Assembly (NCBI GenBank): GCA_949288145.1 | Contig: CASEJD010000091.1 | Location: 1 to 35,357 of the forward strand | Length of the DNA: 35,357 nt | Direction of reading: 5' to 3' | Source of the DNA: an uncultured Coriobacteriia bacterium | Lineage (GTDB): Bacteria; Actinomycetota; Coriobacteriia; Coriobacteriales; Eggerthellaceae | Shown here: positions 313 to 33,598 of the stretch, piece by piece | How the letters are laid out: the number at the start of each line of letters is the position of its first letter | Numbering within the stretch: the first letter of the stretch is position 1 | Translations under genes and position numbers: made by a program | The notes under the pieces: generated by a model | Databases searched by the model: none | The model's input: the letters and a program-made list of their open reading frames with translations, nothing else | Told to the model about the DNA's origin: nothing

Positions 313-386
313 AGGCGCGAGGGGTGCTTTCGTTCCCGAAAACGGGACATTCGCGACCTCCTCTTTCGTTTGGGCGGCGTTTTGGG

Positions 387-392
387 CATGAT
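387..392 (+). promoter_or_regulatory. Candidate -10 element for the SLH/papain protein
   Basis: CATGAT in the context GGGCATGATAGG lies 54 bases before the ATG at 447. It resembles other -10-like elements in this window in position and flanks. No convincing -35 box is visible. A short stem at 334-347 just upstream lacks a T run. Confidence 0.3.
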
Positions 393-446
393 AGGGCGTG
401 ACAACCCGTCTTCACGGCGCGTGCGCGCCGGAAAGGAGCGTGCGCC

Positions 447-3400
447 ATGCCGCGTCCTCAGATTGCCGACTTGCAGTCCAAGCTCGCTCGCGACCTGCCC
501 CTTCGCCTGCTCGCATGCATGCTTTCGCTCGTGCTCGCGTTCTCGGGCGCGCCGCTTGCCTTCGCCGAGCCGGGCCAGACCGGTCAGCCTGACGGCTCCA
601 GCGCGGACGCCGTGGCAAATGAGGTGACGGCTCGCACCGTGGAGGAAGCGGGCATCGAGGTCAGCGTGGCGGACGTGAACCCCGCCTACCGGGAGTACCT
701 TGAGGCGGAGGACTACGAGGGCATCGTTCCTTCGACGCTCGACCTTTCGTACCTGAACGAGTCGTACGCTGCGTCCGTCTCGGCGCGCTCGGCGGAGGAT
801 TCCTTGCCGGCGTCTTACGACCTGCGCGACACCAACGCGATCGGTCCGGTGCGCAATCAGGAAACGACGAACAACTGCTGGGCGTTCGCTGCGATCGGCT
901 CCGCCGAGGCGAGCATCGCGGCGTACGACCCGAACACGCTGCTTTCGCCCGCTCACCTGGCGTGGTTCAGCTACACGGGCGGCGAGCAGCAGGAGGCCGT
1001 CGTGGGCAAGCAAGAGGGGTCCGGCGCGTACAATTCCGGTGGGTTCCAGCAGACGGCCGTGGCAACGCTGGCGGCATGGGAGGGCCCCGTCCTGCTCGCC
1101 GACGCGCCGTTCCAAAGCGAGCTGCTTGGCGAAGACCGTCGGTACGATGCCGCGTACCACCTCCAGGATGCGCAGTACCTGCCCGGCTCGCTGTCGGACG
1201 CGGGCGGCGAGGTGCAGAGCGCGAGCATCGAGACAGTGAAGCGCATCATCATGGAGAAAGGCCCCGTCACCGTGGACATTGCCACGCAGGGTGACCAGGC
1301 GCACCTGACGATGCCGAACGCGGACGGCTCAGGCCATGCCACGCTGTACAACGACGCGTATTTCGGCATTGACCATGCGGTGCTCATCGTGGGCTGGGAC
1401 GACGGCTTCGCGAAAGAGAGCTTCCATCCCGACGCGCAGCCGGCACACGACGGCGCATGGCTCGTGAAGAACAGCTGGGGCGCCTCGTGGGGAGAGAACG
1501 GCTATTTCTGGCTGTCCTACGAGGACCAGAGCGCCGTCTACAACGCCGCCTACCAGCTGGAGTCCGCCGAGAACTACACGACGAACCACCAGTACGACGT
1601 CATGGGTTGGATCACGAGCCTTTCGGTCGCGAACGCGGGCGACGCTTCGTCGAGCGCTGCCGGCGTCGGCTGGATGGCGAACGTCTTCACGGCTGAGGAG
1701 GCCGAGACGGTGGAGGCTGTGGGCTTCTACACCACCGACGAGGGCACGTCCTACGAGATTTCGATCTACAAGAACCCGCACGAGGACGACCCGGCATCCG
1801 GCGAGCGCATCGGCGGTGTCCAGACGGGTGTCGAGGAGCATCCGGGCTATCACACCATCGAGCTCGATGAAAGCCTGCAGGCGCAGCTTGCGGCGGGCGA
1901 GACGTTCTCCGTGGTGGTCAAGCTCGCGAACCCGCGCTACGAGAAGGCAATCCCTGCCGAAGGAGCCGTGGGGCGCGGCTTCGATTGGAGGCCGGCGTAC
2001 TTGGGCTACGACGCCGAGGGCAATCCGGAGACGAGTTACGTGTCCGCCGACGGCGAGGCGTGGGGCACGTTGGGAACGAGCTTCATGGACCCGTCGGGCG
2101 TGAGCGTCTACGCTACGAACGTCTGCTTGAAGGCGTTCGCCCAGGCCGAGGGTGCGGACGATTCCGGTCGCCAGCTAGAGGAGTCGAATACGGCCGCAAT
2201 CGGCGGCGTGAACGTGCGGTTCGTGGAGGATGCCACCGGATGGGACGGCTCCGCGTACGAGCAGTCGACCGACTACGGCGAGGTCGATTTCACGCGGGCT
2301 GACGACGGTGCGTGGGAAGCCACCGTGGCGTGGCAGCCGACCGAAGGCATGGCGAACCCGCGGGCGCGCATCCTGGTCACAGGCGACCGCGAGCTGCGCG
2401 CGACCATGAACGGCACGGCCGTCGACGTGCGCTGCGGCTCGTGGAGCGCCGACGCCGCGTTGAGCAGCGCCGAGGACGGCGTCAACGTCCTGGAGTTGAC
2501 GAGCGCCGATCCTTCGTCGGGCAAGGAGCCTGCGGTCTACCGCATTCGGTTCGTGACCGGCCAGGTGACGTTCGATTTCGAGCGGGAGACGGTCACCTTC
2601 GACGAGGCGCACTACGAGGTCGCGGCGCCGGATGGTACGAAGCTTCGCAGCGGCGATGCGGTCTCTGCCTGGTCGTCCATCGACGGAGAACGAGCTCAGG
2701 CGCTGCGCGTGACGGAGCGGTCGAGCGGCCTGACGTTCTCGCTGGCGGTGCCCACGCGGCATGCCGACATCACGGAGGACGAGGTGTCGATCAACTGGCC
2801 TGCCGAGACGGTCGGTTTCGGTCAGCGCGGCATGGTCGTGGCGTCGTACGCCGCCGACTTCTCGAACCCGTTCGATCTGTGGTCGACCGACCGGGTGACC
2901 CCGGGCACCACGATCTACGTGAAGGCGCCGGCGGGCGAGGGGCATTTCGCGTCGACCAACGCCCTGCGGGTCGAGCTGCCCGAGCGCGGCGAGGCGCCCG
3001 CTGTCGCCACCGTGCTGCGCACGACGCCGACGACCGCGCTGTTCGAGCAGTACGACGCGGACGGCGTGCGCCTGCAGTTCAGCGTGGACGGCAGCATGTG
3101 GAGCGACGACCCGCTCGTGATGGGGCTGCAGCCGGGCGCTGCGAACACGGTGTACGTCCGCTACCCGGGCGAGTACCTGGGCGCCGGCGCGCAGGTGGCG
3201 GGGCATTTCGGCTCCGAGCCGCTTGCCGTGACGGTGGAGACGCCGGAGCAGGTGTCCTCCTACGACGTGCGTAGCGAGGTCGGCCTGCCCGCCGTGCGCG
3301 ACCAGGACGTGTACAGCACGTGCTGGGCGTTCGCGGCGCTCGGCTCGCTCGAGTCGAACCTGATCAAGCAGGGGCTCGCCGGCACCGACGTGGACCTTGC

Positions 3401-5426
3401 CGAGGCGTCGCTCACCATGCTCACGTACCAGCGCCTGCCGCTGTACGCCGACGACGCCTCGGCGAAGGACGCGTACGCGACGAGCGGCGGCCGGTTCGAA
3501 GGCTACGAGTACATGCTGCGCTCGGGAGGAACCTGGCAGATGGCGGCGAGCACGCTGGCGCGTTGGCAGGGCGCGGCGAGCGAAGCGGACGTCCCGTACG
3601 TGACGCTCGAGGCGGCCGACTACGACTACGCGGCGGCGGGCGAGGCCATGGGGGAGGCGGCCGCCGCGGTGGCGAACGACGACGCCGTGCGCCTGGAGTC
3701 CGCCTACGAGCTGCCCGTCCCGGTCTCGACGGACGCGGGCTACGCGAAGGCCGACTGGCCCGCAGTCGAAGCGATCCAGCAGGCGATCCTTGCGGACGGT
3801 GCGCTCGACCTTGGCATGGCGGAACCGTTCGAGGACGACGGATACTGGGGTGCAGGCGAAGGCGCGAACCATTGGTTCTACGACGCGTACACGAACGGGA
3901 TGTCCGCCAAGCACGCGGTGATGCTGGTGGGCTGGGACGACGGGTACAGCCGCATGAACTTCGCCGTTCCCTACACCGGTCAGGCCTACGACGTCGATCT
4001 TGCCGAGCTCGTGAACGCCGACGGGACGCCGGCGGCCGAGCCCATTCCGAACAGCGGGCAGCTCATCGTGCCGCTGTCCGACGGCGCGTGGTTGGTGCGC
4101 AACAGCCGCGGCGCCGATTTCGGCGACGACGGGTGCCTGTGGGTGCCGTACTACGACGCGAGCCTGCGCGCGCCCGTGGCGTTCACGGCGGACGGCACGC
4201 CGGCGGACGAGCGCCCGGACAAGAGCTACCAGCACGATGGGCTTGCCGCTACTGAGGTGTCCAGTTGGGAGTCCGGGCTGCTGGCGGCGAACGTGTTCAC
4301 GGCGGGCGAGAGCGCCGAGCTCATGAGCGTGGGCATGTGGACGACGCGCGATAACGCGACGGTCAGCGTCCAGGTGTACACGGGCTTGACGAACGCCGCG
4401 GACCCGACGAGCGGCGAGCTCGCGGCGTCCTTCGAGGCGATGGAGCTGTATGCGGGCTATCACACCTTCGAGCTGCCCACGGCGGTGGCGCTATCGGAGG
4501 GGACGACCTTCTCGGTGGTGGTGGGCGAGCGCTCGCCCGCGACGGCCTCTATCCCTGCATACGCCGTGCCCGTGGAGGCGGCCACCGTCATCGGCTGGAA
4601 CGAGGACGGCACGCCACGCTACGACAGCACGCCGGTCGTTGAGGCAGGGCAGAGCTTCATCTGCGAGAACGGCATCTGGGGCGACGTTGCTGAAAACCGC
4701 GCCCAGTGGGAGGCGCGCCTGGGCGTGCCCATTGGCAACGTGGCCGTGAAAGCTTTCACGAAGGCGGTAGAGGACTCTGGTCCCGAACCGGTCTCGTTCC
4801 TTGATGCGGCGCTCTGGGCCGACGGCGGTGCGTACGCGTGGGCGTCGCCGTGGATCGAAGAGGCGGCGAGCCTTGGGGTCTTGAAGGGCGTTCCGGCGGA
4901 GGGCGGCGTCGCGCTCGAGCCGGCGGGCGCGGTCACGCGCGCCCAGGTGGCCACGGTGCTCTACCGCGCCACGGTGGGCGAGGCCGCCGACGAGCGCGGG
5001 ACGGCTTTCGCGCTCGATGCCACCTCATTCGTCGACAATGCGGACGGCCAGTGGTACACGAGCGCTGTGAACTGGGCGTTCGAGCACGGCATCCTGGAGG
5101 GTTACGAGGGCTTCGTCCGTCCGGACGACCCGGTGACCCGCGCCGAGTTGGCCACGATGGTGGGGCGCTGGGCCGAGGCGTGCTTCGGCGTGGACGTGTC
5201 GGCCGCCGACCCGACGGCGCTTCTGTCCACGACAGACGGCGCACAGCTTGAGGCGGAAGGCTTCGGTTACGCCGTCCCGTACCTGGCGTGGACGGCCGAC
5301 ACGGGCATCCTGGGCGGCTTCGGGAACCCCGACGGCTCCGTCTCGATTGTGCCCGACGGCACGGCAGAGCGCGCGCAGCTGGCGAAGGTTGGCGTCGAGG
5401 CCATGCGGGCGGTCGGACTCTTGTAG
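447..5426 (+). CDS. Large exported protein with two papain-like (C1) protease domains and SLH repeats
   Basis: 1659 residues. A Sec signal peptide ends near residue 40 (hydrophobic core, then AFA followed by EPGQ). Protease domain 1 (about 120-365) has Gln138 and Cys144 in NQETTNNCWAF, His310 in IDHAVLIVGWDD and Asn342 in VKNSWG, the full papain set. A lectin-like beta domain follows (about 375-565), then further beta-rich segments. Protease domain 2 (about 935-1240) has Gln953 and Cys959 (DQDVYSTCWAF), His1156 (KHAVMLVGWDD) and Asn1219, but the usual NSWG is NSRG. A second lectin-like segment leads to about three SLH motifs (1445-1659) that should anchor the protein to the cell wall. AGGAG at 434-438 supports the ATG. 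It is probably a surface protease acting on proteins or peptides outside the cell; substrate unknown. It ends in a strong terminator and stands as a single-gene unit. Confidence 0.88.
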   Translation: MPRPQIADLQSKLARDLPLRLLACMLSLVLAFSGAPLAFAEPGQTGQPDGSSADAVANEVTARTVEEAGIEVSVADVNPAYREYLEAEDYEGIVPSTLDLSYLNESYAASVSARSAEDSLPASYDLRDTNAIGPVRNQETTNNCWAFAAIGSAEASIAAYDPNTLLSPAHLAWFSYTGGEQQEAVVGKQEGSGAYNSGGFQQTAVATLAAWEGPVLLADAPFQSELLGEDRRYDAAYHLQDAQYLPGSLSDAGGEVQSASIETVKRIIMEKGPVTVDIATQGDQAHLTMPNADGSGHATLYNDAYFGIDHAVLIVGWDDGFAKESFHPDAQPAHDGAWLVKNSWGASWGENGYFWLSYEDQSAVYNAAYQLESAENYTTNHQYDVMGWITSLSVANAGDASSSAAGVGWMANVFTAEEAETVEAVGFYTTDEGTSYEISIYKNPHEDDPASGERIGGVQTGVEEHPGYHTIELDESLQAQLAAGETFSVVVKLANPRYEKAIPAEGAVGRGFDWRPAYLGYDAEGNPETSYVSADGEAWGTLGTSFMDPSGVSVYATNVCLKAFAQAEGADDSGRQLEESNTAAIGGVNVRFVEDATGWDGSAYEQSTDYGEVDFTRADDGAWEATVAWQPTEGMANPRARILVTGDRELRATMNGTAVDVRCGSWSADAALSSAEDGVNVLELTSADPSSGKEPAVYRIRFVTGQVTFDFERETVTFDEAHYEVAAPDGTKLRSGDAVSAWSSIDGERAQALRVTERSSGLTFSLAVPTRHADITEDEVSINWPAETVGFGQRGMVVASYAADFSNPFDLWSTDRVTPGTTIYVKAPAGEGHFASTNALRVELPERGEAPAVATVLRTTPTTALFEQYDADGVRLQFSVDGSMWSDDPLVMGLQPGAANTVYVRYPGEYLGAGAQVAGHFGSEPLAVTVETPEQVSSYDVRSEVGLPAVRDQDVYSTCWAFAALGSLESNLIKQGLAGTDVDLAEASLTMLTYQRLPLYADDASAKDAYATSGGRFEGYEYMLRSGGTWQMAASTLARWQGAASEADVPYVTLEAADYDYAAAGEAMGEAAAAVANDDAVRLESAYELPVPVSTDAGYAKADWPAVEAIQQAILADGALDLGMAEPFEDDGYWGAGEGANHWFYDAYTNGMSAKHAVMLVGWDDGYSRMNFAVPYTGQAYDVDLAELVNADGTPAAEPIPNSGQLIVPLSDGAWLVRNSRGADFGDDGCLWVPYYDASLRAPVAFTADGTPADERPDKSYQHDGLAATEVSSWESGLLAANVFTAGESAELMSVGMWTTRDNATVSVQVYTGLTNAADPTSGELAASFEAMELYAGYHTFELPTAVALSEGTTFSVVVGERSPATASIPAYAVPVEAATVIGWNEDGTPRYDSTPVVEAGQSFICENGIWGDVAENRAQWEARLGVPIGNVAVKAFTKAVEDSGPEPVSFLDAALWADGGAYAWASPWIEEAASLGVLKGVPAEGGVALEPAGAVTRAQVATVLYRATVGEAADERGTAFALDATSFVDNADGQWYTSAVNWAFEHGILEGYEGFVRPDDPVTRAELATMVGRWAEACFGVDVSAADPTALLSTTDGAQLEAEGFGYAVPYLAWTADTGILGGFGNPDGSVSIVPDGTAERAQLAKVGVEAMRAVGLL

Positions 5427-5460
5427 GGGAGAAGGCACAGAGCCGCATGTGGCGGAAGTC

Positions 5461-5498
5461 GCGCCCCTGCCCCGATACTTCGGGGCAGGGGCGCTTTT
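5461..5498 (+). terminator. Rho-independent terminator after the SLH/papain gene
   Basis: A perfect 14-bp stem (5461-5474 with 5481-5494) closes a six-base loop, ATACTT, and is followed by TTTT. It starts 35 bases after the stop codon at 5424-5426. Confidence 0.92.
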
Positions 5499-5746
5499 GT
5501 GCCAGCAGTCGGTTGCGGCTTGGTGGCGGCGCGTGTGGCCTTCGTGCCGCGCGTCAAGTTTTCAGCGTTTCGAAACAAACGCCGGCTATACTTTGCCTCG
5601 TCAAACAGAGAGCGCCGCTTTGCGGTGCGAAGGTCGGGCGGGCATCGGCGCGAAGCCGTCCAGCTTCTCCCGGCCTGGCGCGGAGCCCGCTTCGCGCTTC
5701 CCCCGGTACCGTGCCGGGGCGCGATTCCTGAAGGGAGACTTGCACT
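5499..5746 (+). promoter_or_regulatory. ddh upstream region: -10 element, palindrome and leader hairpin
   Basis: This non-coding stretch holds a good -10 element, TATACT, at 5587-5592 (context GGCTATACTTT). A perfect 10-bp palindrome, GTTTCGAAAC, lies at 5567-5576, in the spacer just before the -10, where a repressor could sit. The implied leader is about 150 bases and includes a GC-rich hairpin at 5701-5719 (CCCCGG pairing with CCGGGG) and the ribosome binding site AAGGGAG close to the ATG at 5747. No small gene is evident. Confidence 0.45.
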
Positions 5747-6736
5747 ATGTCCGAAACCCGCATTGGCATCCTGGGCTACGGCAACCTGGGCCGTGGCGTC
5801 GAACTGGCCATCCGTCAGAACGCCGACATGAAGCTCGCTGCGCTGTTCACGCGCCGCGACCCCGCGTCCCTGACCCCGCTGACCGAGGGCGTGCCGGTCT
5901 ACTCCGCCGACGCCGTGGCAGACCACGCCGACGAGATTGACGTGCTCATCCTGTGCGGCGGCAGCGCGACCGACCTGCCGGAGCAGACCCCGCGCTATGC
6001 CGGCATCTGCAACGTGGTCGACTCCTTCGACACCCATGCGAACATCCCGCAGCACTATGCTAAGGTCGACGCGGCTGCGCAGGGCGCCGGCACCGTGGCC
6101 GTCATCTCCGGCGGCTGGGACCCGGGCATGTTCTCCATCGCCCGCCTCTACGCGAACTGCATCCTGCCGGAGGGCCAGGACTACACGTTCTGGGGCCGTG
6201 GCGTTTCCCAGGGCCATTCCGACGCCATTCGCCGCGTGCCCGGCGTGAAGGACGCCCGCCAGTACACCGTCCCGGTGCCCGCTGCCCTTGAGGCCGTCCG
6301 CGCCGGCGAGAACCCGGAGCTGACCACGCGCCAGAAGCACACGCGCGAGTGCTACGTCGTGGCGGAGGAGGGCGCCGACCTGGCTGCCATCGAGAAGGCC
6401 ATCGTCGAGATGCCGAACTACTTCGCCGACTACGACACCACGGTGACGTTCATCTCCCAGGAAGAGCTCGACCGCGACCATGCGGGCATCCCGCACGGCG
6501 GCTCCGTCATCCGCACGGGCCTGACCGGCGCTAACGGCGAGGACCAGCACGTCATCGAGTTCTCGCTCAAGCTGGACTCCAACCCGGAGTTCACGGGCAG
6601 CGTGCTCGTGGCCTGCGCCCGCGCCGCGCACCGTCTGGCCGAAGAGGGTCAGACCGGCTGCCGCACCATGTTCGACATCGCCCCGGCCTACCTCTCGCCG
6701 AAGAGCGCTGAGGAGCTGCGTGCCACGATGCTGTAG
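5747..6736 (+). CDS. ddh: meso-Diaminopimelate D-dehydrogenase
   Basis: 329 residues, the usual length of the family. Ddh makes meso-diaminopimelate from tetrahydrodipicolinate, ammonia and NADPH in one step, supplying lysine and peptidoglycan cross-links and bypassing the succinylase or acetylase branches. The N-terminus has the dinucleotide motif ILGYGNLG (Gly10, Gly12, Gly15). Family-typical segments include CGGSATDLPEQTP, VDSFDTHANIP and SGGWDPGMFSIARLY (about 121-135), the last contributing to the substrate pocket. The ATG follows a clear AAGGGAG. The gene is monocistronic between its own promoter region and a strong terminator. The assignment is firm; alternatives such as homoserine or dihydrodipicolinate dehydrogenase lack these motifs. 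Confidence 0.95.
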   Translation: MSETRIGILGYGNLGRGVELAIRQNADMKLAALFTRRDPASLTPLTEGVPVYSADAVADHADEIDVLILCGGSATDLPEQTPRYAGICNVVDSFDTHANIPQHYAKVDAAAQGAGTVAVISGGWDPGMFSIARLYANCILPEGQDYTFWGRGVSQGHSDAIRRVPGVKDARQYTVPVPAALEAVRAGENPELTTRQKHTRECYVVAEEGADLAAIEKAIVEMPNYFADYDTTVTFISQEELDRDHAGIPHGGSVIRTGLTGANGEDQHVIEFSLKLDSNPEFTGSVLVACARAAHRLAEEGQTGCRTMFDIAPAYLSPKSAEELRATML

Positions 6737-6782
6737 TTTTGTTGCGCTGGTCTGACGACTGGTGAAACATCGAAAGAACAGG

Positions 6783-22508: not shown

Positions 22509-22552
22509 AGGCGGCATGCCGCCTTGTGCACATTCACGTGGACGAACGTCCA
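22509..22552 (+). promoter_or_regulatory. Two palindromes upstream of the reductase operon
   Basis: A perfect 16-bp palindrome, AGGCGGCATGCCGCCT, lies at 22509-22524. A second dyad, TGGACG-AA-CGTCCA, lies at 22539-22552. Both are within 70 bases of the catalytic-subunit start codon at 22577 and are plausible binding sites for a dimeric regulator or RNA hairpins in the leader. Confidence 0.5.
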
Positions 22553-22576
22553 AGGAAGAGAGAAAAAGGAGGGAGT

Positions 22577-25315
22577 ATGGCAACAGCGAGCCAGGCATCC
22601 GCGACCATGTCGCGTCGTAGCTTCGTGAAGGCGTCGGCGTTGTGTGGTGCGGTTGCCGCTTCCGGCATCGCGGCGACGGACTGCTTTGTGAAGGCTGATC
22701 CCGCCCGCGCTGCCGAGAGCAACGACGTCAAGATCGTCAAGACCTCGTGCCGTGCGTGCATCGCGGCATGCGCTGTCCTGGCGCACGTCCAGAACGGTCG
22801 CGTCATCAAGATCGAGGGCAATCCGGAGAGCCCCATGAGCATGGGCGGCGTGTGCGCCAAGGGTCTTGCCGGCATCCAGGCGCTCTACAACCCGAACCGC
22901 CTGCAGTACCCCTTGCGTCGCGTGGGCGAGCGCGGTGGCAACGACTGGGAGCGCATCTCCTGGGACGAGGCCATCACGGATATCGCGACCAAGATCAACG
23001 AGATTTCCGACAAGTACGGTTCCGAGGCCATCACGGTGTCCACGGGCGGCGGCGGCAACCCACACTTCTCTAACGTGAAGTGGTTCGGCGAGTCCATCAA
23101 CACGCCGAACGTGTGGGAGCCCGGTTGCGCCCAGTGCTATCTGCCCCGCATGGCCGCCTCGCAGCTGGTCTACGGCGCCGGCAAGCCGAACAACCTGTCC
23201 TTCGCGGACTCCAACGGTTGGGACTACTACTTCGACGACACGCCGGTGACGAGCCTGGTGCTGTGGGGCACCGACCCGTCCAACTCCTCCGTCGCGACCG
23301 GCGGTCGCGCGCTGGCGGAGCTGCGTGCTCGCGAGCAGGGCCTCAAGACGGTGGTCATCGACCCGCGCATGACCTTGGACGCGTCCAAGGCCGACGTGTG
23401 GCTGCCCATCCGCCCGGGCACCGACGCCGCGCTGCTTCTGGCATGGGAGCACTGGATTATCGAGAACGAGCGATATGACGCCGAGTTCTGCAAGACCTGG
23501 ACGAACATGCCGTACCTGATCAACCCGGAGACGCGCCTGACGCTCAAGGCGACGGAGGCTGGACTTGAAGGCACCGACAAGGACTACGTGGTGTGGGACT
23601 CCAAGACCAACCAGCCCGTCGTCGTGGACTATCCCATGAACGAAGGCGTCGACCCGGCGCTGTTCGGCACCTACGAGGTCAACGGCATGCAGTGCTCCAC
23701 CGGCGGTGAGCTGCTCAAGCGGTCCTGCGAGGAGTGGACCGTCGAGAAGGCCGCCGAGGTCTGCTGGCTGGACGCCGACCAGATCGTGAAGGCGCTCGAG
23801 ATCTACACCGACCCCGAGGGTCAGTCCGGCATCATGCAGGGTGTGCCGATCGACCAGTACCCGCAGTCCCAGCAGTGCGCGCTGGCTGCCCTTGCCCTGG
23901 AATTCCTCATGGGCAACGTCGAGAAGCCCGGCACCATGCTGCAGAACTTCAAGGGCTGCCCCGTCAAGGACCAGCTGGGCAACACCCCGCGCCTGCTGTC
24001 CAAGGAGAAGGTCATGAAGCGCGCGGGCTACATCGAGCACAAGGGCCTCATGGACTGGGATATGTGCTTCATTCCCGACGTCATGACCATGATGAAGGAC
24101 GGCGACCCGTACCAGATTCACATGTGGTTCGACCGTTCCGGCAATAAGCACGCGGTGCTCGGCAACTCCCTGCAGCTTGACGAGGTCACGCCGAACGTCG
24201 ACTGCATCGTCCACATCTACATGTACCCGACGGCCTTCACCCGCATGTACGCCGACTACGCGCTGCCGTGCACGGAGTGGCTGGAGACGAACCTGCCCAT
24301 CCCGCAGCTCAACACTGTTGTCGTCCGCCAGGCGGTCACTCACCTGTTCGAGACGGTGGAAGAGGGCATCATCTGGACGAACATCGTCCAGAAGTGCGCT
24401 GAGCTGGGCAACGAGGCCGCTGCCCGCGCCTTCGACCCGGAGGCTACCTTCGGCCACGTGCTCTACAAGAACGAGTACGAGAAGCAGAAGCAGCACATGG
24501 GCACGTCTGGCATCACCTGGGACGAGCTGTGCGAGAAGGGCGTCATGGAGTGGTGCTCCGTCGACGAGTACCGCACCTACGAGGTCTACAAGAAGATTGA
24601 CGAGAAGACCGGCAAGCCGAAGGGCTTCGGCACGCCGTCCAAGAAGCTCGAGATCTACGCCGAGTCCAACACCATCCTGGGCCGTACGGGCTATCCGTGG
24701 GCGAAGTGCGCCGAAGAGGAGCACTTCGAGGTTCCGCCCGCCAGCGCCGATTACGAGCCGCTCTGCTACTACGTGGAGCCGGCGGAGTCCCCGGTCGAGG
24801 GCGCCGAGGGCTACGACCCCGACTTCCCGCTCGTCATCACGAACGGCCGCCTGCCCATGTACCACCATGGCACGCTGCGCAACGTCCCATGGCTGCGCGA
24901 GATCTATCCCGTGCCCGAGCTATGGATTAACCCCGCGGATGCCGAGAAGTACGGCATCGAGGACGGCACGTGGACGTGGATCGAGTCCCGCCGCGCTAAG
25001 ACGCGCGGCCTGGCGAAGGTCACGACGGCCATCCCGAAGGGCGTGCTGTACCAGGAGCGCTTCTGGAATCCAGAGTTCCTGAACAGCGACGACCCGAAGC
25101 TCGCCTACACGGCCATGAACTACAACGTCCTGAGCAAGACCGACGCCCCGTACAACCCGGAGTATGGCACCTACACACTCCGCGGTTTCACGGTCAAGGT
25201 CTACCCGTGCCCCGAAGGCGCGCCGGAAGGTACCTGGATGAAGCCCGAGGACTTCACTCCGTGGCTGCCGACGCCCTCCGATCCTACCGAGGAGGTGTTC
25301 GATTATGGCGCGTAA
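22577..25315 (+). CDS. Tat-exported molybdopterin oxidoreductase catalytic subunit (DMSO reductase family)
   Basis: 912 residues. The N-terminus carries a Tat signal (SRRSFVKASALCG, Arg13-Arg14), so the enzyme folds with its cofactor and is exported. A 4Fe-4S site follows: Cys58, Cys61, Cys65 and Cys93. The rest matches bis-MGD enzymes: EGNPESPMSMGGVCAKG, WERISWDEAI, LVLWGTDPSNSS, KTVVIDPRMTLDASKADVWL and the C-terminal dinucleotide domain (PLVITNGRLPMYHHGTLRN). By position relative to LVLWGTDP, Cys187 in GCAQCYLPRM is the best candidate Mo ligand (inference). The enzyme is closest in type to orphan Eggerthellaceae reductases; the substrate cannot be told. ATG 22577 has the strong site AAGGAGGGAG. 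The next gene overlaps by 11 bases. Confidence 0.92.
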   Translation: MATASQASATMSRRSFVKASALCGAVAASGIAATDCFVKADPARAAESNDVKIVKTSCRACIAACAVLAHVQNGRVIKIEGNPESPMSMGGVCAKGLAGIQALYNPNRLQYPLRRVGERGGNDWERISWDEAITDIATKINEISDKYGSEAITVSTGGGGNPHFSNVKWFGESINTPNVWEPGCAQCYLPRMAASQLVYGAGKPNNLSFADSNGWDYYFDDTPVTSLVLWGTDPSNSSVATGGRALAELRAREQGLKTVVIDPRMTLDASKADVWLPIRPGTDAALLLAWEHWIIENERYDAEFCKTWTNMPYLINPETRLTLKATEAGLEGTDKDYVVWDSKTNQPVVVDYPMNEGVDPALFGTYEVNGMQCSTGGELLKRSCEEWTVEKAAEVCWLDADQIVKALEIYTDPEGQSGIMQGVPIDQYPQSQQCALAALALEFLMGNVEKPGTMLQNFKGCPVKDQLGNTPRLLSKEKVMKRAGYIEHKGLMDWDMCFIPDVMTMMKDGDPYQIHMWFDRSGNKHAVLGNSLQLDEVTPNVDCIVHIYMYPTAFTRMYADYALPCTEWLETNLPIPQLNTVVVRQAVTHLFETVEEGIIWTNIVQKCAELGNEAAARAFDPEATFGHVLYKNEYEKQKQHMGTSGITWDELCEKGVMEWCSVDEYRTYEVYKKIDEKTGKPKGFGTPSKKLEIYAESNTILGRTGYPWAKCAEEEHFEVPPASADYEPLCYYVEPAESPVEGAEGYDPDFPLVITNGRLPMYHHGTLRNVPWLREIYPVPELWINPADAEKYGIEDGTWTWIESRRAKTRGLAKVTTAIPKGVLYQERFWNPEFLNSDDPKLAYTAMNYNVLSKTDAPYNPEYGTYTLRGFTVKVYPCPEGAPEGTWMKPEDFTPWLPTPSDPTEEVFDYGA

Positions 25316-25889
25316 TTGCATCGTCGTGAACCTCGACCGCTGCACTGGCTGCTACGGCTGCGAGGTCGCCTGCAAGATGGAGAACGACATCGCGCTGGGT
25401 GAGTACTGGAACAAGGTCGTCGAGGTCGGTCCGTTCGGCGACTACCCGGACATCACGCGCTACAAGGTGCCGTCCATGTGCCAGCAGTGCGAGGACGCCC
25501 CGTGCGTCCACGTGTGCCCGACCGGCGCGAGCTACCGCGATCCCGAGACCAACATCGTGCTCGTCGACCGCGAGAAGTGCATCGGCTGCAAGTACTGCAT
25601 GATGGCGTGCCCGTACGGCGTCCGCAACTGGAACGCCGAGACCAAGACGGTCGAGAAGTGCACCCTGTGCGGCCACCTGACTGCGCAGGGCGAGCTGCCC
25701 GCGTGCGTGAAGAGCTGCGCCGCCGGCGCGCGTTTCTACGGCGACTTGGACGACCCGGATTCCGACGTGTCCAAGGAGCTCGCACGCTACGACGCTGACG
25801 CGATCCACACGCTCGAGGACGTGGGGAACCATCCGGCGACCCATTACATCTGGTCCCCGAAGCATGGCGAATGGAAGGAGCGCATCTAA
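25305..25889 (+). CDS. Four-cluster ferredoxin subunit (DmsB-like)
   Basis: 194 residues. Sixteen cysteines in four groups should bind four 4Fe-4S clusters: 13/16/19/23, 59/62/67/71, 92/95/98/102 and 119/122/134/138. The motifs CTGCYGCEVAC, CQQCEDAPCVHVCP and CIGCKYCMMACP are those of the DmsB/PsrB/NrfC group, which relay electrons from the membrane subunit to the molybdenum subunit. It has no signal peptide, so it should cross the membrane with the catalytic subunit's Tat signal. It overlaps the catalytic gene by 11 bases, with GAGGAGGT inside that gene's end, and abuts the anchor gene. Confidence 0.95.
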   Translation: MARNCIVVNLDRCTGCYGCEVACKMENDIALGEYWNKVVEVGPFGDYPDITRYKVPSMCQQCEDAPCVHVCPTGASYRDPETNIVLVDREKCIGCKYCMMACPYGVRNWNAETKTVEKCTLCGHLTAQGELPACVKSCAAGARFYGDLDDPDSDVSKELARYDADAIHTLEDVGNHPATHYIWSPKHGEWKERI

Positions 25890-26702
25890 ATGGAGATCCA
25901 ATGGTCACTCGTTCTGTTCACGGTGCTCTCCGGTGCCGGTGCGTGGCTGTTTGCCAGTGCCGCCATCGATGAGTTCAAGGGCACGACGAAAAAGACGGCG
26001 TTCCCTGCCGCTATCCTGGCGGTGGTCCTGCTGGCTGTCGGCGGCATCTGCTCTGTGACGCACCTTTCGCACCCTGAGCGCATGCTGGCCGCCCTCGGCC
26101 ATCCCACCGCGGGCATCTTCCTGGAAGCGCTGCTCCTGGGCATCCTGGCCGTCGTCGCGATCGTCTACGCGATCTTGGTGAAGCGCGAGGCGTCCGCTGG
26201 AGCCCGCAAGATCTTCGCGGCTCTTGGCATCATCGCTGCCATCGCGCTGACCTTCGCCTGCGGTGCGTCCTACATGATGTCCTCCCACGCCATGTGGAAC
26301 ACCATCACGCTTCCGCTCGCGTACCTGGGCACTGCCGCTGCCAGCGGTACGGCGCTCTACCTGGTGCTGTGCGCTGCTCTGAAGGAGAGCGACGAGGCGG
26401 TCTCCTTCGCGGGCCTGCTTGCCACTGCGGGCGGCGTGCTCGCCCTGGTGCTCGGCATCGTCTACGGCGTTGCTGGCAACGTCGCCTTCGGCGACCAGGC
26501 GGCTATCTTCTGGCTGGCGGTCGTTGTCTGCGGCGGCGTCGCGCCGATCGTGTTCGGTTACCTGGCGAGCAGGAAGCCCGCTTCCGGCCTGACCTACGGC
26601 GCCATTGCCGTGGTGGGCGCCCTTATCGGGTCAATCGGCCTGCGCTGCGTCATGTGGCTTGCCGGCTCGGCCCTGATGTCCCTGTTCGGGGTTGTCCTCT
26701 AA
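25890..26702 (+). CDS. Membrane anchor subunit (DmsC-like)
   Basis: 270 residues with about eight hydrophobic helices, the size and pattern of DmsC-type anchors. These oxidise menaquinol and pass electrons to the iron-sulfur subunit. The N-terminus (MEIQWSLVLFTVLSGAGAWL) and the HLSHPERMLAALGHPTAGIF segment after helix 2 are characteristic. It starts on the base after the ferredoxin stop codon, so the three structural subunits are translated as a coupled set. It is followed by a 200-base gap with three stem-loops before the chaperone gene. Confidence 0.88.
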   Translation: MEIQWSLVLFTVLSGAGAWLFASAAIDEFKGTTKKTAFPAAILAVVLLAVGGICSVTHLSHPERMLAALGHPTAGIFLEALLLGILAVVAIVYAILVKREASAGARKIFAALGIIAAIALTFACGASYMMSSHAMWNTITLPLAYLGTAAASGTALYLVLCAALKESDEAVSFAGLLATAGGVLALVLGIVYGVAGNVAFGDQAAIFWLAVVVCGGVAPIVFGYLASRKPASGLTYGAIAVVGALIGSIGLRCVMWLAGSALMSLFGVVL

Positions 26703-26723
26703 GGAGTCCCGAGGCATGTTTGT

Positions 26724-26869
26724 CTGCCGGCCTGCGAATGCGGGCCGGCAGCCCTTCGGACGACCGCTCGGCGAAGCGCCATGCACCCCCCCTCGCACGG
26801 CGCTTCGCCGGTCGATCGGCCGGCCTTGTGTACTCCACCCCTCTGATCCCTCCCAAGGCCGGCTCGACC
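26724..26869 (+). repeat. Three consecutive stem-loops between anchor and chaperone genes
   Basis: Stem 1: 26724-26735 with 26740-26751 (one or two G-T pairs, GAAT loop). Stem 2: 26769-26780 with 26799-26810, perfect 12 bp, 18-base loop containing C7, extendable by 26761-26764 with 26811-26814. Stem 3: 26819-26828 with 26854-26863, perfect 10 bp, extendable by 26810-26815 with 26864-26869. The outer parts of stems 2 and 3 compete for 26810-26815. None has a T run, so they look like RNA processing, stability or attenuation elements inside the operon. Confidence 0.65.
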
Positions 26870-26902
26870 GTTCCAAGCCTGACGAAGCAAGGAGACCATC
26901 AC

Positions 26903-27583
26903 ATGGACGAAGCAATGAAAAAGGAAGTGCGCGAATCGAGCGAAGCGCGCGCCACGTTCTATCGCTTCCTGGCAAGTGTCTATTTCACGGAATTGACCGT
27001 CGAGCAGATTGAAACGCTGGCGACACAAGAGTTCCCGCAGGACGACTCCGAGATTGCGCAGGGGTACGCAACCATCAAAGAATACCTGCGGCATCGTGAC
27101 GCGGGCACGCGACAGGAGCTGGCGGTCGACTACGCCCACACGTTCCTGAGCGCGGGCATGTACGACACGGTTATGGCGCCGCCGTACGAGTCGGTCTTCA
27201 CGAGCGAGCAGCACCTGCTCATGCAGGAGGCGCGCGACGGCGCGGTCGCGTTCTACCGTGCTGAAGGGATCGACCTTCCTGCCGACAACACCACGCCTGA
27301 GGATCACGTGTCGTTCGAGATGCAGTTCATGGCTCGCTTGATCGACCGCGCGGTCGAGGCAATCGACGAAGGTGACGACGCGGAGTTCGCTCGTCTGGTC
27401 GGTGTGCAGGACCGCTTCCTCGCGGAGCATCTGGAGAACTGGATTCCCGCGTTCACGCGGGCAATCGACGAGCATGCCCGCACTGATTTCTATCGCGGTG
27501 TGGCGAGCTTGACGCGCGGTTTCTTGACGCTTGACCGCGAGGTCGTGGACGACTTGGCGGCGTACGTGTCGGAGCAAGCGTAA
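26903..27583 (+). CDS. TorD/DmsD-like chaperone for the molybdenum enzyme
   Basis: 226 residues, all-helical, of the TorD family of redox-enzyme maturation proteins. These bind the Tat signal and apoenzyme of their partner until the molybdopterin cofactor is inserted. Recognisable parts are ARATFYRFLASVYF near the N-terminus, the APPYESVF segment (92-99), and the conserved PEDHVSFEMQFMARL (132-146), then FLAEHLENWIPAFTRAI. The partner is almost certainly the catalytic subunit encoded at 22577. ATG 26903 follows AAGGAGA; any longer in-frame start would run through the stem-loop region and the anchor gene. Confidence 0.88.
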   Translation: MDEAMKKEVRESSEARATFYRFLASVYFTELTVEQIETLATQEFPQDDSEIAQGYATIKEYLRHRDAGTRQELAVDYAHTFLSAGMYDTVMAPPYESVFTSEQHLLMQEARDGAVAFYRAEGIDLPADNTTPEDHVSFEMQFMARLIDRAVEAIDEGDDAEFARLVGVQDRFLAEHLENWIPAFTRAIDEHARTDFYRGVASLTRGFLTLDREVVDDLAAYVSEQA

Positions 27584-27666
27584 GCGGAATCGTGCGAGCG
27601 GGCGGCCGCCGTCATGGCGCGTCGGTGCTCAACAGGTGGTGTCCTGATCGCGGGGAGAGGAGAGGC

Positions 27667-28293
27667 ATGGCTGACTTGACGCGCAGGACGTTCATTGGCG
27701 CGTGCGCGAGCGTCGTCGCGTGCGCTGGAATCGGCGGGGGAGTTCGCGTTCTCGGCTCCTCCGACGAACTGTTGCGCCCGCCAGGCGCTCAGGACGAGGC
27801 GCACCTGCTAGGCGCCTGCGTGCGTTGCGATCGGTGTCGCTCCGTGTGCCCGACCGGCGTGATCGCCGTCGGACACGTCGAGGACGGGCTGGTGAACGCG
27901 CGTACGCCCATCCTCGACTTCCACAAAGGCTACTGCGATTTCTGCGACAAGTGCGCGGAAGTCTGTATGACAGGCGCCATTCGCCCATTCGACGAGACGC
28001 GCGAGAAGATTGGCGTCGCGGTCGTCATCGAGGACCGATGCGTCGCGTACTACGGCGGGTGCGACCGGTGCGCCGAGGTCTGCCCGTACGAGGCAATCTC
28101 GCTTGACGGGGCGGGCCATCCTCAGGTCAATGCTGACGCGTGCAATGGGTGCGGCCTGTGCGTCGACGAATGCCCGGCGCTCGTGTACCGCTCGTTCGTC
28201 GGCGGCGTGCACCGCGGCATCGAGGTCGTGGCTCCCGCGGTGTACGACCGCCTCTCCCGCACGACGGTCTCGACCGAAAGCGAGTTGATGTGA
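27667..28293 (+). CDS. NapG-like Tat-exported ferredoxin
   Basis: 208 residues. A Tat signal begins at LTRRTFIGACAS (Arg6-Arg7). Four 4Fe-4S groups are visible: Cys51/54/57/61, 90/93/96/100, 125/132/135/139 and 159/162/165/169; the third has a longer first spacer (RCVAYYGGCDRCAEVCP), a feature of NapG/MauM ferredoxins. With NapH, NapG passes quinol electrons to a soluble exported reductase. There is no nitrate reductase here, so the pair should serve the molybdenum enzyme upstream or another one. ATG 27667 follows GGAGAGGAGAGG. The napH-like gene starts one base after the stop. Confidence 0.88.
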   Translation: MADLTRRTFIGACASVVACAGIGGGVRVLGSSDELLRPPGAQDEAHLLGACVRCDRCRSVCPTGVIAVGHVEDGLVNARTPILDFHKGYCDFCDKCAEVCMTGAIRPFDETREKIGVAVVIEDRCVAYYGGCDRCAEVCPYEAISLDGAGHPQVNADACNGCGLCVDECPALVYRSFVGGVHRGIEVVAPAVYDRLSRTTVSTESELM

Positions 28294-28294
28294 C

Positions 28295-29290
28295 ATGAAA
28301 AAGCCGTCGTCTATGCTGCTTCGCACGTTGAGCGCGGTCGCGGCCATCGCACTCGTGTGCCTGGGGCTGGCCATCCATACCGGCTTCGGCACCCCGTCCT
28401 CGTGGGGTATCGCCGACATCGCTGCGCTCTGCCCGCTCGGCGCCATCGAGGCGGCCATCGCATCGCGCACGGTCGTCCCGCCCATGCTGCTGGGCGCTGT
28501 CATCGTCGTTGTCCTCACCATCGTGTTCGGACGCGCGTTCTGCGCGTGGGGTTGCCCCATCCCGCTGCTTCGCCGCGTCCTGGGCTTGAAGTCTCCGCAG
28601 GAGAAGCGAGCGGAGCGGGAGCGCAAGCTGGGCAAGCGCGCGGCGCACGCCGAGGGCGAAGAGCGCGAGAAGGCGCTCAAGGAGCTTGAAGAGGTGGCAG
28701 CCGAGGAGGCCGAAGCCCGCCTGCATCCGGGTGAGATGGTCGAGCAGGGCCCGCTGGGAATCCCGCGCAAGCTACGCGGCGGAATCCACGATTCCCGCAA
28801 CTGGGTTCTGGGCGGTACGATTCTTTCGACTGCGCTGTTCGGCTTCCCGGTCTTCTGCCTGATCTGCCCGGTTGGCCTCACGTTCGGTACGATTATCGTG
28901 CTCTGGAGGCTGTTTCAGTTCAATGAGGCGACGCTGTCTTTGGTCGTGTTCCCGGCGTTGCTGCTGCTGGAGATCGTCGTGCTGCGCAAGTGGTGCCACC
29001 GGTTCTGCCCGCTCGGCGCGCTGTTCTCGTTGATCGCACGCCTGAACCGAACGTTCCGTCCGCGCGTCGACGCAACGACGTGTCTGCGCGAGAACGGCGA
29101 GGCGTGCCACAAGTGCGCGGAGGTGTGCGAAGAGGGCATCGACCTCCACGACGGGACGGTTTCCGCGCCGCTGTTCGAATGCACGAAATGCCGCGTGTGC
29201 GCGGACAGGTGCCCGGCGCACGCTATCAGCTTCCCGTTGTTGAACGGTGGCTTTCACACTCGGGAGTCTGAAGAAAAACAGGTAAAGTAG
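28295..29290 (+). CDS. NapH-like quinol-oxidising iron-sulfur membrane protein
   Basis: 331 residues. Hydrophobic helices carry the paired Cys motifs of the NapH/NosR/RnfC-neighbour family: FCAWGCPIP (about 82-90), FCLICPVG and HRFCPLGAL. A C-terminal ferredoxin-like part has CLRENGEACHKCAEVC and CTKCRVCADRCP for two clusters. Between the first Cys motif and the next helix is a 65-residue charged segment (EKRAERERKLGKRAAHAEGE and onward) likely to be a cytoplasmic coiled coil; E. coli NapH has only a short loop there. Together with the NapG-like protein it should oxidise menaquinol and feed the exported reductase. ATG follows the previous stop by one base. Confidence 0.88.
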   Translation: MKKPSSMLLRTLSAVAAIALVCLGLAIHTGFGTPSSWGIADIAALCPLGAIEAAIASRTVVPPMLLGAVIVVVLTIVFGRAFCAWGCPIPLLRRVLGLKSPQEKRAERERKLGKRAAHAEGEEREKALKELEEVAAEEAEARLHPGEMVEQGPLGIPRKLRGGIHDSRNWVLGGTILSTALFGFPVFCLICPVGLTFGTIIVLWRLFQFNEATLSLVVFPALLLLEIVVLRKWCHRFCPLGALFSLIARLNRTFRPRVDATTCLRENGEACHKCAEVCEEGIDLHDGTVSAPLFECTKCRVCADRCPAHAISFPLLNGGFHTRESEEKQVK

Positions 29291-29358
29291 CAGAAGGGGG
29301 ACACTGCGAAGTGGGGAAGGCCGCGCCGGAGACGTGCGCGCCCTTCCGAGGAGGGGCC

Positions 29359-30990
29359 ATGGACGCAAGACGAAACGAATCAAGCACGCTTTCTCGATTG
29401 TCCGAGGAGAAGACGGTCGCCGCTGCGAGCACGGAGGGGAAGCGCCCGTGGCTTTCGATGTCGACGCTGTTCGCGGACATCGACGAGCAGTGGCCGAGCC
29501 TGAAATTCCTCGGTTTCGGGTGCTATTACGCGTGGATTTGGCTGTGTTACGACAGTGGGGTCCTTGTGCCCGATTGGATGCAGAACCAGGCCGCGTACAG
29601 CGTGTTCGACATGTACCTGCTCTCGACGACGGCACTTGCGGTCGTTCTCATCGCCTCGTCGTTGTTCGCTTCTAAGGTCGAGGCGGTCTTGCGCTACTCC
29701 TCTATCGTGTTCGCTGCGGGAGTGCTCGCCACCGTGAGCACGGTGGGCGTGGTCTTCAGCGGGGGAGGCCCTGCCTTCACGGTCTTCTCGGCCCTGACGG
29801 GCGTTGGGACGGCGTGGATCGCGCTGCGCCTTGGCGTGGTGTACGGCACGGTGCCGGCGCGCCAGGCGCTCATGTACACTGCGGCGTCGTTCGTGTTCGC
29901 CGGCATGCTGTACTTCGTTGCCGTGGGCTTGCCCGGGTTTGCGGGCATCCTCTTCGCGGCGTTCTTGCCGACAATGGCGGCGTTGTGCTCCATCGCCACG
30001 CTCGCGCGCACGGATTCTGCGCGGTCTGACCGTCGTCCGACCAGGTCGCTGCCGCACGGGTTCTTCGCTCGCTTCGTGCTGGCGGTTGCGGCGTTCGCCG
30101 TGGTCGTGGGCGTGACGCGCGGCTACTCGACGCTGTCGAGCGGTGTTGACGTCCTGAGCGCGAAAGGCGTGATCATCGTGGCGGCGACAGCATGCATTGC
30201 CGCCATCCTCTTCCTGGTCGCCGGCATGCTCATGCGCGATTTCGACGTGTCGAAGCTGTACTATCCGGCGACGATTCTGGTTTCAGGTGGTGTGCTGGTC
30301 ACGCCGGTCGTCTCGTCCGCCACGGGCGGGGCGAGCGCAGGGGCGTTCGAGGGACAGGTCATTGGCGTGGCGTACGCGCTGTTCGTCATGGTCATCTGGT
30401 GCCTGTGCGCGCACGTGTCCTACATGGCCGACCTGTCGCCCGTGCGCGTGTTCGGTTGGGGCCGCGGCGCCTCCGCTGCCGGCACGACACTGGGGTGGGT
30501 GCTGGGCTCGATGCTGCTCGAGCGGACGGGCGACAACCCGACGGTCATCGTCGCGGTCTCGATCGTGATGGTGTTCGTCCTGCTCATTGTGGTCATGCTC
30601 GTGTTCAACGACCGTGCGATCGGTCGCGTGCTGCGCCAGGCGAACGGCCTCGAGCGAGCCGAGGCGGACGCGTTCGGCAATATTTTCCCAGATGGCATGG
30701 TCGAAGGCGCCGGTGTTCCTGACGAGGGCGACGGCGCATCGCGGCCGCAGGGCGCCTGGACGCGCGCGTGCAACCTCATCGCCGACGACGGTGGGCTCTC
30801 CGCGCGCGAGCGGGATGTCCTGTTCCTGCTGGCGAAGGGCCGTTCGATTGAGTACGTGCACGAGGAGCTGGGCATCTCCGTCAACACCGCGAAGACCCAT
30901 ATCAAGAACGTGTACGCGAAGCTCGGCGTGCACACGCGCCAGGAGCTCCTGGACATGGTCGAGCACGCCGTCGATGAGCAACGACGGTAA
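29359..30990 (+). CDS. Membrane-embedded LuxR-type transcriptional regulator
   Basis: 543 residues. The first 430 or so hold about a dozen hydrophobic helices in a transporter-like arrangement, and the C-terminus is a LuxR DNA-binding domain (480-535): LSARERDVLFLLAKGRSIEY, then ISVNTAKTHIKNVYAKLG. This architecture is expanded in Eggerthellaceae, where such genes sit beside respiratory reductase operons and some have been shown to control them in response to the reductase's substrate. By position it is the likely regulator of the operon at 22577-29290 (inference). ATG 29359 follows GAGGAGGGG; an in-frame GTG at 29311 has a poorer site. It is 68 bases after the napH-like gene with no terminator between, so it may be on the same transcript. 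Confidence 0.92.
   Translation: MDARRNESSTLSRLSEEKTVAAASTEGKRPWLSMSTLFADIDEQWPSLKFLGFGCYYAWIWLCYDSGVLVPDWMQNQAAYSVFDMYLLSTTALAVVLIASSLFASKVEAVLRYSSIVFAAGVLATVSTVGVVFSGGGPAFTVFSALTGVGTAWIALRLGVVYGTVPARQALMYTAASFVFAGMLYFVAVGLPGFAGILFAAFLPTMAALCSIATLARTDSARSDRRPTRSLPHGFFARFVLAVAAFAVVVGVTRGYSTLSSGVDVLSAKGVIIVAATACIAAILFLVAGMLMRDFDVSKLYYPATILVSGGVLVTPVVSSATGGASAGAFEGQVIGVAYALFVMVIWCLCAHVSYMADLSPVRVFGWGRGASAAGTTLGWVLGSMLLERTGDNPTVIVAVSIVMVFVLLIVVMLVFNDRAIGRVLRQANGLERAEADAFGNIFPDGMVEGAGVPDEGDGASRPQGAWTRACNLIADDGGLSARERDVLFLLAKGRSIEYVHEELGISVNTAKTHIKNVYAKLGVHTRQELLDMVEHAVDEQRR

Positions 30991-31450: not shown

Positions 31451-31454
<4 letters not shown>
31212..31454 (+). CDS. feoA: Ferrous iron transport protein A
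   Basis: 80 residues, an SH3-like beta-barrel protein that assists FeoB. Typical features are the start of the barrel RVGGRYRVRGIQ, then RLEALGMTHGALIEVLNGKG and the closing VIVRVRGARFALGSGIAAGI. A GGGAGA site precedes the ATG. Its stop overlaps the feoB start (ATGA, 4 bases), giving coupled translation. FeoA may regulate or open the FeoB transporter. No feoC follows. Confidence 0.93.

Positions 31455-33598
<2,144 letters not shown>

Follow-up and report, generated by a model that had tools for sequence, protein, structure and literature searches.

Cwp84 of Clostridioides difficile (4ci7, 4d59) is a secreted, surface-held enzyme in which a prosegment and a single C1A peptidase are followed by a lectin-like domain. 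In the parts of PMC4089489 available to us, its target is given as SlpA of C. difficile, its acidic S2 pocket is lined by Ser235, Thr317, Asp318 and Asp320, and a figure legend credits Cwp84-type proteins with cell-wall-binding repeats (PF04122). A papain-like enzyme is also joined to a lectin in the Marasmius oreades agglutinin (MOA), which is fungal and calcium/manganese-dependent and, according to the excerpts of PMC8244254 at hand, is active with a polar residue, Gln276, at the position of papain Trp177 and with Trp in place of the oxyanion Gln. The same excerpts describe the role of Trp177 in papain catalysis as debated, and a title in the reference list (Gul 2008) links this residue to the formation of the nucleophilic Cys25/His159 pair in papain. 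In its accessible portion, a survey of prokaryotic C1A peptidases (PMC10380794) leaves the multidomain ones without more detailed analysis, which suggests that they are little studied. Among the matches listed in the open-licence literature, no title concerned a bacterial protein with two papain domains, which is weak evidence of absence.

Here, we describe a protein from an uncultured member of the Eggerthellaceae that carries two peptidase-lectin units on one chain. Its gene lies near the start of a 35,357-nucleotide stretch of DNA (the window), and its features, in window coordinates and with D1 and D2 as the two peptidase domains, are as follows.

447..5426, plus strand: putative tandem C1A/lectin-like surface protease, 1659 aa (ORF and Pfam)
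447..566, plus strand: putative signal peptide, aa 1-40 (by eye, hydrophobic N-terminus up to AFA)
567..803, plus strand: Cwp84-like prosegment of D1, aa 41-119 (phmmer to 4ci7, model, pair identity)
804..1529, plus strand: peptidase domain D1, aa 120-361 (Gln138, Cys144, His310, Asn342, Trp344, Trp348)
1590..2141, plus strand: lectin-like domain 1, aa 382-565 (PF18560)
2184..3236, plus strand: middle region, aa 580-930 (beta-rich in the predicted model)
3249..4166, plus strand: peptidase domain D2, aa 935-1240 (Gln953, Cys959, His1156, Asn1219, Arg1221, Phe1225)
4227..4760, plus strand: lectin-like domain 2 (PF18560)
4764..5423, plus strand: linker and SLH repeats, putative surface anchor of this strain (PF00395, 3e-15, 2 stretches)
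4765..5550, strandless: segment without a BLAST match to the orthologous locus L056, the putative anchor swap (blastn)
5747..6736, plus strand: diaminopimelate dehydrogenase gene (ddh), downstream gene (neighbour in L056 too, 98% aa)

The domain order is signal peptide, prosegment, D1, lectin 1, beta-rich middle region, D2, lectin 2 and SLH, and Pfam found two matches each to Peptidase_C1 (8.9e-30), Lectin_like (4.3e-56) and SLH (1.2e-12). The middle region of the window copy had no Pfam match; in the two Gordonibacter orthologues scanned it contained fn3, with scores of 26.0 and 21.2 against a cut-off of 25. NCBIfam returned one match on the whole protein, below its cut-off and of no usable name. 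PF04122 was absent from the matches to Pfam families up to E = 1, and SLH was found instead. Judged by its domains, the window protein appears to be a member of the C1A-lectin family of the Cwp84 type in an unusual two-headed build. Both of its units share with Cwp84 the C1A peptidase followed by the same lectin-like domain, and the stretch before D1 resembles the Cwp84 prosegment; Cwp84, in contrast, has one such unit, whereas the window protein has two of different descent, the second without a visible prosegment, together with an SLH anchor.

A search of 60 related genomes (its own included) returned two orthologues in the same genus, 75% and 55% identical. A contig search with a five-row D2 alignment as the query, from which the best 80 of 157 loci were taken, assigned the same-genus orthologues to Ca. 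Aveggerthella excrementigallinarum (L056) and Ca. A. stercoripullorum (L057) and added three more, from Gordonibacter sp. 28C (L058), sp. Marseille-P2775 (L100) and G. pamelaeae 7-10-1-b (L101). Among the best 80 of 157 loci, some of which are cut by contig ends and could hide further tandems, these five have a pair of C1 and a pair of lectin units in a single frame. The tandem build is known from six proteins, the window protein included, in two genera; with five orthologues, this survey of related genomes, a check proposed in the sequence-only reading, indicates that the build is not a recent oddity.

Alignment places the D1 site at Gln138, Cys144, His310 and Asn342 with the motif NSWG, and the D2 site at Gln953, Cys959, His1156 and Asn1219 with the motif NSRG. 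The equivalents of papain Gln19, Cys25, His159 and Asn175 are kept at both sites in all six tandem proteins, and, since most peptidase columns vary among the six (98 of 242 invariant in D1, 112 of 306 in D2), their retention is unlikely to be due to chance. The claim of the sequence-only reading that one protein holds two full papain sets, each followed by a lectin-like domain, was thus borne out by two Peptidase_C1 profiles, two PF18560 matches and four conserved residues per site. Its observation that NSRG replaces NSWG in D2, with loss of the shielding Trp, also held: the position of papain Trp177 is Trp344 in D1 and Arg1221 in D2. A further change that it had missed is at the position of Trp181, which is Trp348 in D1 and Phe1225 in D2. 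In six of six tandem proteins, D2 has Arg and Phe at these two positions and D1 retains both Trp.

The segment between His and Asn, which had been described as longer in D2, is indeed so in the window protein (63 residues, compared with 32 in D1), but the trait is not unique, as it is shared by single-domain relatives. Among single-domain members of the D2 subfamily, the three steps measured are 58, 59 and 81 residues long, as against 30-42 residues in 21 measured domains outside the subfamily. Because it is common to these single-domain relatives, a long step alone is no mark of decay. The D2 domains of Gordonibacter have a step of 37-38 residues, and thus the subfamily is not uniform; the sequences suggest that the step was either shortened in Gordonibacter D2 or lengthened elsewhere. 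The view of the long loop as a sign of decay is therefore unsupported.

The identical C1-lectin order in both halves would be expected had the tandem arisen by internal duplication, with D2 as a decaying copy. Phylogenetic analyses point in another direction. D1 and D2 fell into different clades in a first tree of 27 domains. In a second tree of 44 rows, which includes Gordonibacter and 12 outside rows, draws on 12 of the 79 single-domain rows and leaves out G56a, the six D1 domains grouped with G10 and with the second unit of both G024 and G032 (support 100/98), and the six D2 domains grouped with five single-domain Eggerthellaceae rows (G8/L063, G24c/L060, G33/L054, L067 and L074; support 100/98); several branches of this tree are long, and the program flags two of its joins as doubtful. 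Structure alignments covered 54 of the 79 single-domain rows and the 6 tandem rows. A constraint that unites all twelve tandem domains, a group defined once the first tree was known, lowers the log-likelihood by 75 units (p-AU 0.0005), and internal duplication is thereby rejected under the tree model used. The long His-Asn step of single-domain relatives also speaks against duplication, which we regard as extremely improbable. D1 and D2 thus appear, from their sequences, to come from different C1-lectin subfamilies, and the different descent of D2 fits its long His-Asn step, because the single-domain members of its subfamily share that step. These five relatives are not part of a tandem, and the Arg position of D2 is Trp in three of them and Tyr in two. 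The fusion would be older than the split between Gordonibacter and Ca. Aveggerthella, or else the gene, once fused, would have moved from one genus to the other.

A second kind of tandem was observed in the family. Lectin_like gave 100 matches in 55 of 137 family genomes, and nine reading frames had two of them (hand count). Six of the nine are the present tandem, and the other three (G024, G032 and G117) differ in size and also have two C1-lectin units per frame. In G024 and G032, a first unit of C53 rather than D2 type precedes a second one from the D1 clade with CGPF as against CWAF, and the Trp177 site is without Arg. In G118, which belongs to the genus of G024, two lectin-like matches lie in neighbouring frames of 1018 and 725 aa (contig C56, about 118910-122369); they may represent an unfused state of the second tandem kind, a broken fusion or unrelated neighbours.

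The genome of the window also contains a paralogue on contig C53 (L036, L002), a 1809-aa frame with Ser (AGC) in place of the catalytic Cys and NGWG in place of NSWG. Its counterpart in another genome of the same genus (G001, L040) retains Cys (TGT) and NSWG. As judged from these codons and motifs, activity was likely lost in one species of the genus, and this paralogue indicates that catalytic loss does occur in this protein family.

Among 113 aligned C1 domains, a set in which two contigs are doubled (L048/L060, L049/L063) and two fragment rows are blank in the Gln and Cys columns, the Trp177 position is occupied by Trp in 90, Tyr in 14, Arg in 6, His in 2 and Asn in 1. All six domains with Arg are the D2 of tandem proteins. 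The Arg codons across the six genes are CGC (four), CGT (one) and CGG (one), and this use of synonymous codons suggests that the residue has been maintained; the change from Trp to Arg would have arisen once. A degenerate DNA pattern for GAW..RN[S/N]RG was found in at least 6 of 138 family genomes and 2 of 48 genera, and in an even sample of the order in at least 3 of 297 genomes, all three within the same family; these are lower bounds, as the pattern covers some Ser and Arg codons only and the order sample omitted three of the six known carriers. By analogy, Gln276 of MOA may be taken as a precedent for an active enzyme with a polar residue at this site, with the difference that MOA has exchanged its oxyanion Gln, whereas D2 retains it.

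Estimates of dN/dS (Nei-Gojobori, four pairs) lay in the ranges 0.15-0.20 (D1 peptidase), 0.22-0.26 (D2 peptidase) and 0.32-0.59 (middle region), the value for the pair with Ca. A. stercoripullorum being rough because dS exceeds 1 there; the neighbouring ddh gave 0.06 (one pair). The value of the D2 peptidase was slightly higher than that of D1 in four of four pairs. D2 therefore seems to be under purifying selection, with a constraint slightly below that of D1.

These data bear on whether only D1 cuts, with D2, weak or silent, retained for binding peptides so as to offer substrate to D1 or orient it. D2 has neither Trp of the NSWG region, its constraint is a little weaker, and the C53 paralogue of the same genome has exchanged Cys for Ser. 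Moreover, Arg at the Trp177 site could weaken D2, since Trp177 is said to support the ion pair of papain (a reference title in the excerpts of PMC8244254). Nevertheless, a dead site would not need all four catalytic residues, and these are invariant in six of six proteins although just 112 of 306 D2 columns are; nor is Trp at the Trp177 position universal, as 17 other domains of the 113 have Tyr, His or Asn there. We consider a silent D2 unlikely, albeit deserving of some weight. The earlier suggestion that the two sites differ in specificity or that one is weak therefore divides: weakness is argued against by the dN/dS of D2 and its invariant catalytic residues, and a difference in specificity is likely, based on the S2 columns of the alignment described below.

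Structure prediction supported the assignment of both domains. AlphaFold models had a mean pLDDT of 90.5 for aa 580-1450 and 82.8 for aa 41-600. The D2 model matched Cwp84 (4d59) with Z 31.5 (2.7 A, 402 residues) and cathepsins with Z of about 19, and the best match of the D1 model was Cwp84 with its propeptide (TMt 0.73), with cathepsin S at TMt of about 0.77. As the sequence-only reading had proposed to check, a papain fold is thus predicted for both D1 and D2. A fold match is no proof of activity, however, because papain folds without the catalytic Cys (2b1m and 2b1n) also match the D2 model (Z 18.4 and 18.6).

For D1, the phmmer alignment with 4ci7 begins at aa 74, ahead of the catalytic domain and within the prosegment, and the identity of the prosegment in four pairs is 35-85%. 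By eye, no prosegment-like sequence was seen in the middle region before D2. The single-domain D2 relatives L048/L060, L049/L063, L067 and L074 have about 50-80 residues between the hydrophobic N-terminus and the peptidase, and in L054 the peptidase follows the hydrophobic N-terminus almost directly. It is likely that D2 lost its prosegment upon fusion.

The columns aligned with the four S2 positions of Cwp84 contain Val/Tyr/Asn/Ala in D1 and Leu/Ala/Pro/Ala in D2 (alignment only). Neither domain shares a residue with Cwp84 at any of the four, and D1 and D2 agree at just one of them. Since no acidic residue is aligned with these positions in either domain, in contrast to the acidic S2 pocket that the available parts of PMC4089489 describe, neither head should share the preference of Cwp84 for P2 Lys; since three of four positions differ, D1 and D2 should differ in specificity. 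In the alignment, Ser294 of Cwp84 (4ci7, KSSWG) stands at the position of papain Asn175, and seven residues before it comes the Asn287 mentioned in the available text of PMC4089489. It may be worth checking which residue of Cwp84 is the third catalytic one.

Based on sequence and predicted models, we propose, with a probability of roughly 0.6, that the window protein is a two-headed C1A cysteine protease of the Cwp84 type, secreted and kept at the surface, in which both sites work and their specificity differs. D1 would be synthesised as a zymogen that its N-terminal prosegment keeps in check, whereas D2, with no prosegment seen before it, would be able to act once folded. Both heads would then cut with different P2 and prime-side preferences, and their substrates would be envelope proteins or protein reaching the surface. 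One step further, the chain could form a zymogen cascade, in which D2, active on folding at the surface, removes the prosegment of D1; the fixed change from Trp to Arg in D2 would in that case mark a narrow, dedicated processing site rather than a weak enzyme. The cascade appears improbable to us, and its odds are lowered by L054, one of the five single-domain D2 relatives, which is also without a prosegment.

A role compatible with the two-headed protease proposed here is the maturation, at the envelope, of the cell's own surface or SLH proteins, rather than digestion. Cwp84 is the closest solved relative by both sequence and fold, SLH-like matches occur on several other contigs of the same genome, and surface anchoring would hold the enzyme at the envelope. 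Against this, the acidic S2 positions of Cwp84 are missing in both domains, making the same cleavage rule unlikely, and the D2 signature was found in at least 6 of 138 family genomes, which suggests that such an envelope function is not core to the family. We regard maturation of own-cell proteins as a tentative but serious candidate, with odds somewhat short of even. By analogy with Cwp84, processing of envelope proteins would fit equally well as the processing of host or dietary protein that the sequence-only reading had put forward.

With respect to anchoring, the protein had been described as wall-anchored and ending in SLH motifs. The SLH end was confirmed, as the C-terminal piece alone matched SLH in Pfam (3e-15, 2 stretches), the whole-protein score was above the cut-off, and a third repeat of the AERAQ type was recognised by eye only. 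SLH repeats usually number three. The description is limited to this strain, however, since all five orthologues end (by eye) in L[AV]xTGD, a hydrophobic stretch or TM segment and basic residues, which we take to be a sortase signal. The sorting motif, the membrane helix and the basic tail are absent from the window protein, and SLH repeats are absent from the five orthologues in the alignment and from the three scanned with Pfam. In blastn comparison with L056, matches extend over 326-4764 and 5551-6750, the second running into ddh. As homology resumes at 5551 and continues into this shared gene, the exchange of the anchor would have happened in place, and the adjacency of ddh (98% aa) to the protease in both the window and L056 indicates an intact locus. 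These comparisons suggest that a sortase-type tail was replaced by SLH repeats in this strain.

As the genome is a draft of 181 contigs and SLH is missing from the orthologues, the SLH end could also be an assembly error that fused an SLH protein to the protease. Such a chimera is very unlikely given the L056 homology and the same downstream gene on its flanks, the continuous frame with a GC3 of 0.89 before the joint and 0.88 after it, and the lack of a near-identical SLH copy elsewhere in the genome. At the DNA level, the best-scoring match in the genome was 66% over about 360 bases, and pieces of 45-84 bases reached 75-82%. Nor was a close source of the SLH cassette found there among proteins, the best-scoring match being 46% (C76). 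Two sortase genes were found in the genome by Pfam, nearest to class B in NCBIfam and below the cut-off of that model. SLH anchoring requires a pyruvylated wall polymer (CsaB); one PF04230 (CsaB-like) gene is located beside SLH matches on contig C26, with a TIGR03609 score of 103.8 bits, below the equivalog cut-off of 213.1.

Between the window (326-6750) and L056, the tandem protease is 74% identical and the adjacent ddh 98%, a contrast that suggests fast change or exchange of the surface gene. Further downstream, the window contains a molybdopterin oxidoreductase, a DmsC-like anchor and a 4Fe-4S protein (22526-29290), which form a DMSO-reductase-like respiratory set, followed by a LuxR-type regulator (29311-30990) and FeoB (31451-33598).

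In one strain, SLH repeats have taken the place of a sortase-type tail, which suggests that the anchor is a replaceable module and the enzyme stays. The replacement of Trp177 by Arg with the rest of the papain set intact, in six of six proteins, offers a natural experiment on the part that this residue plays in catalysis. With two papain sites of apparently different descent held by selection on one chain, the purpose of the second head becomes a question that can be asked.
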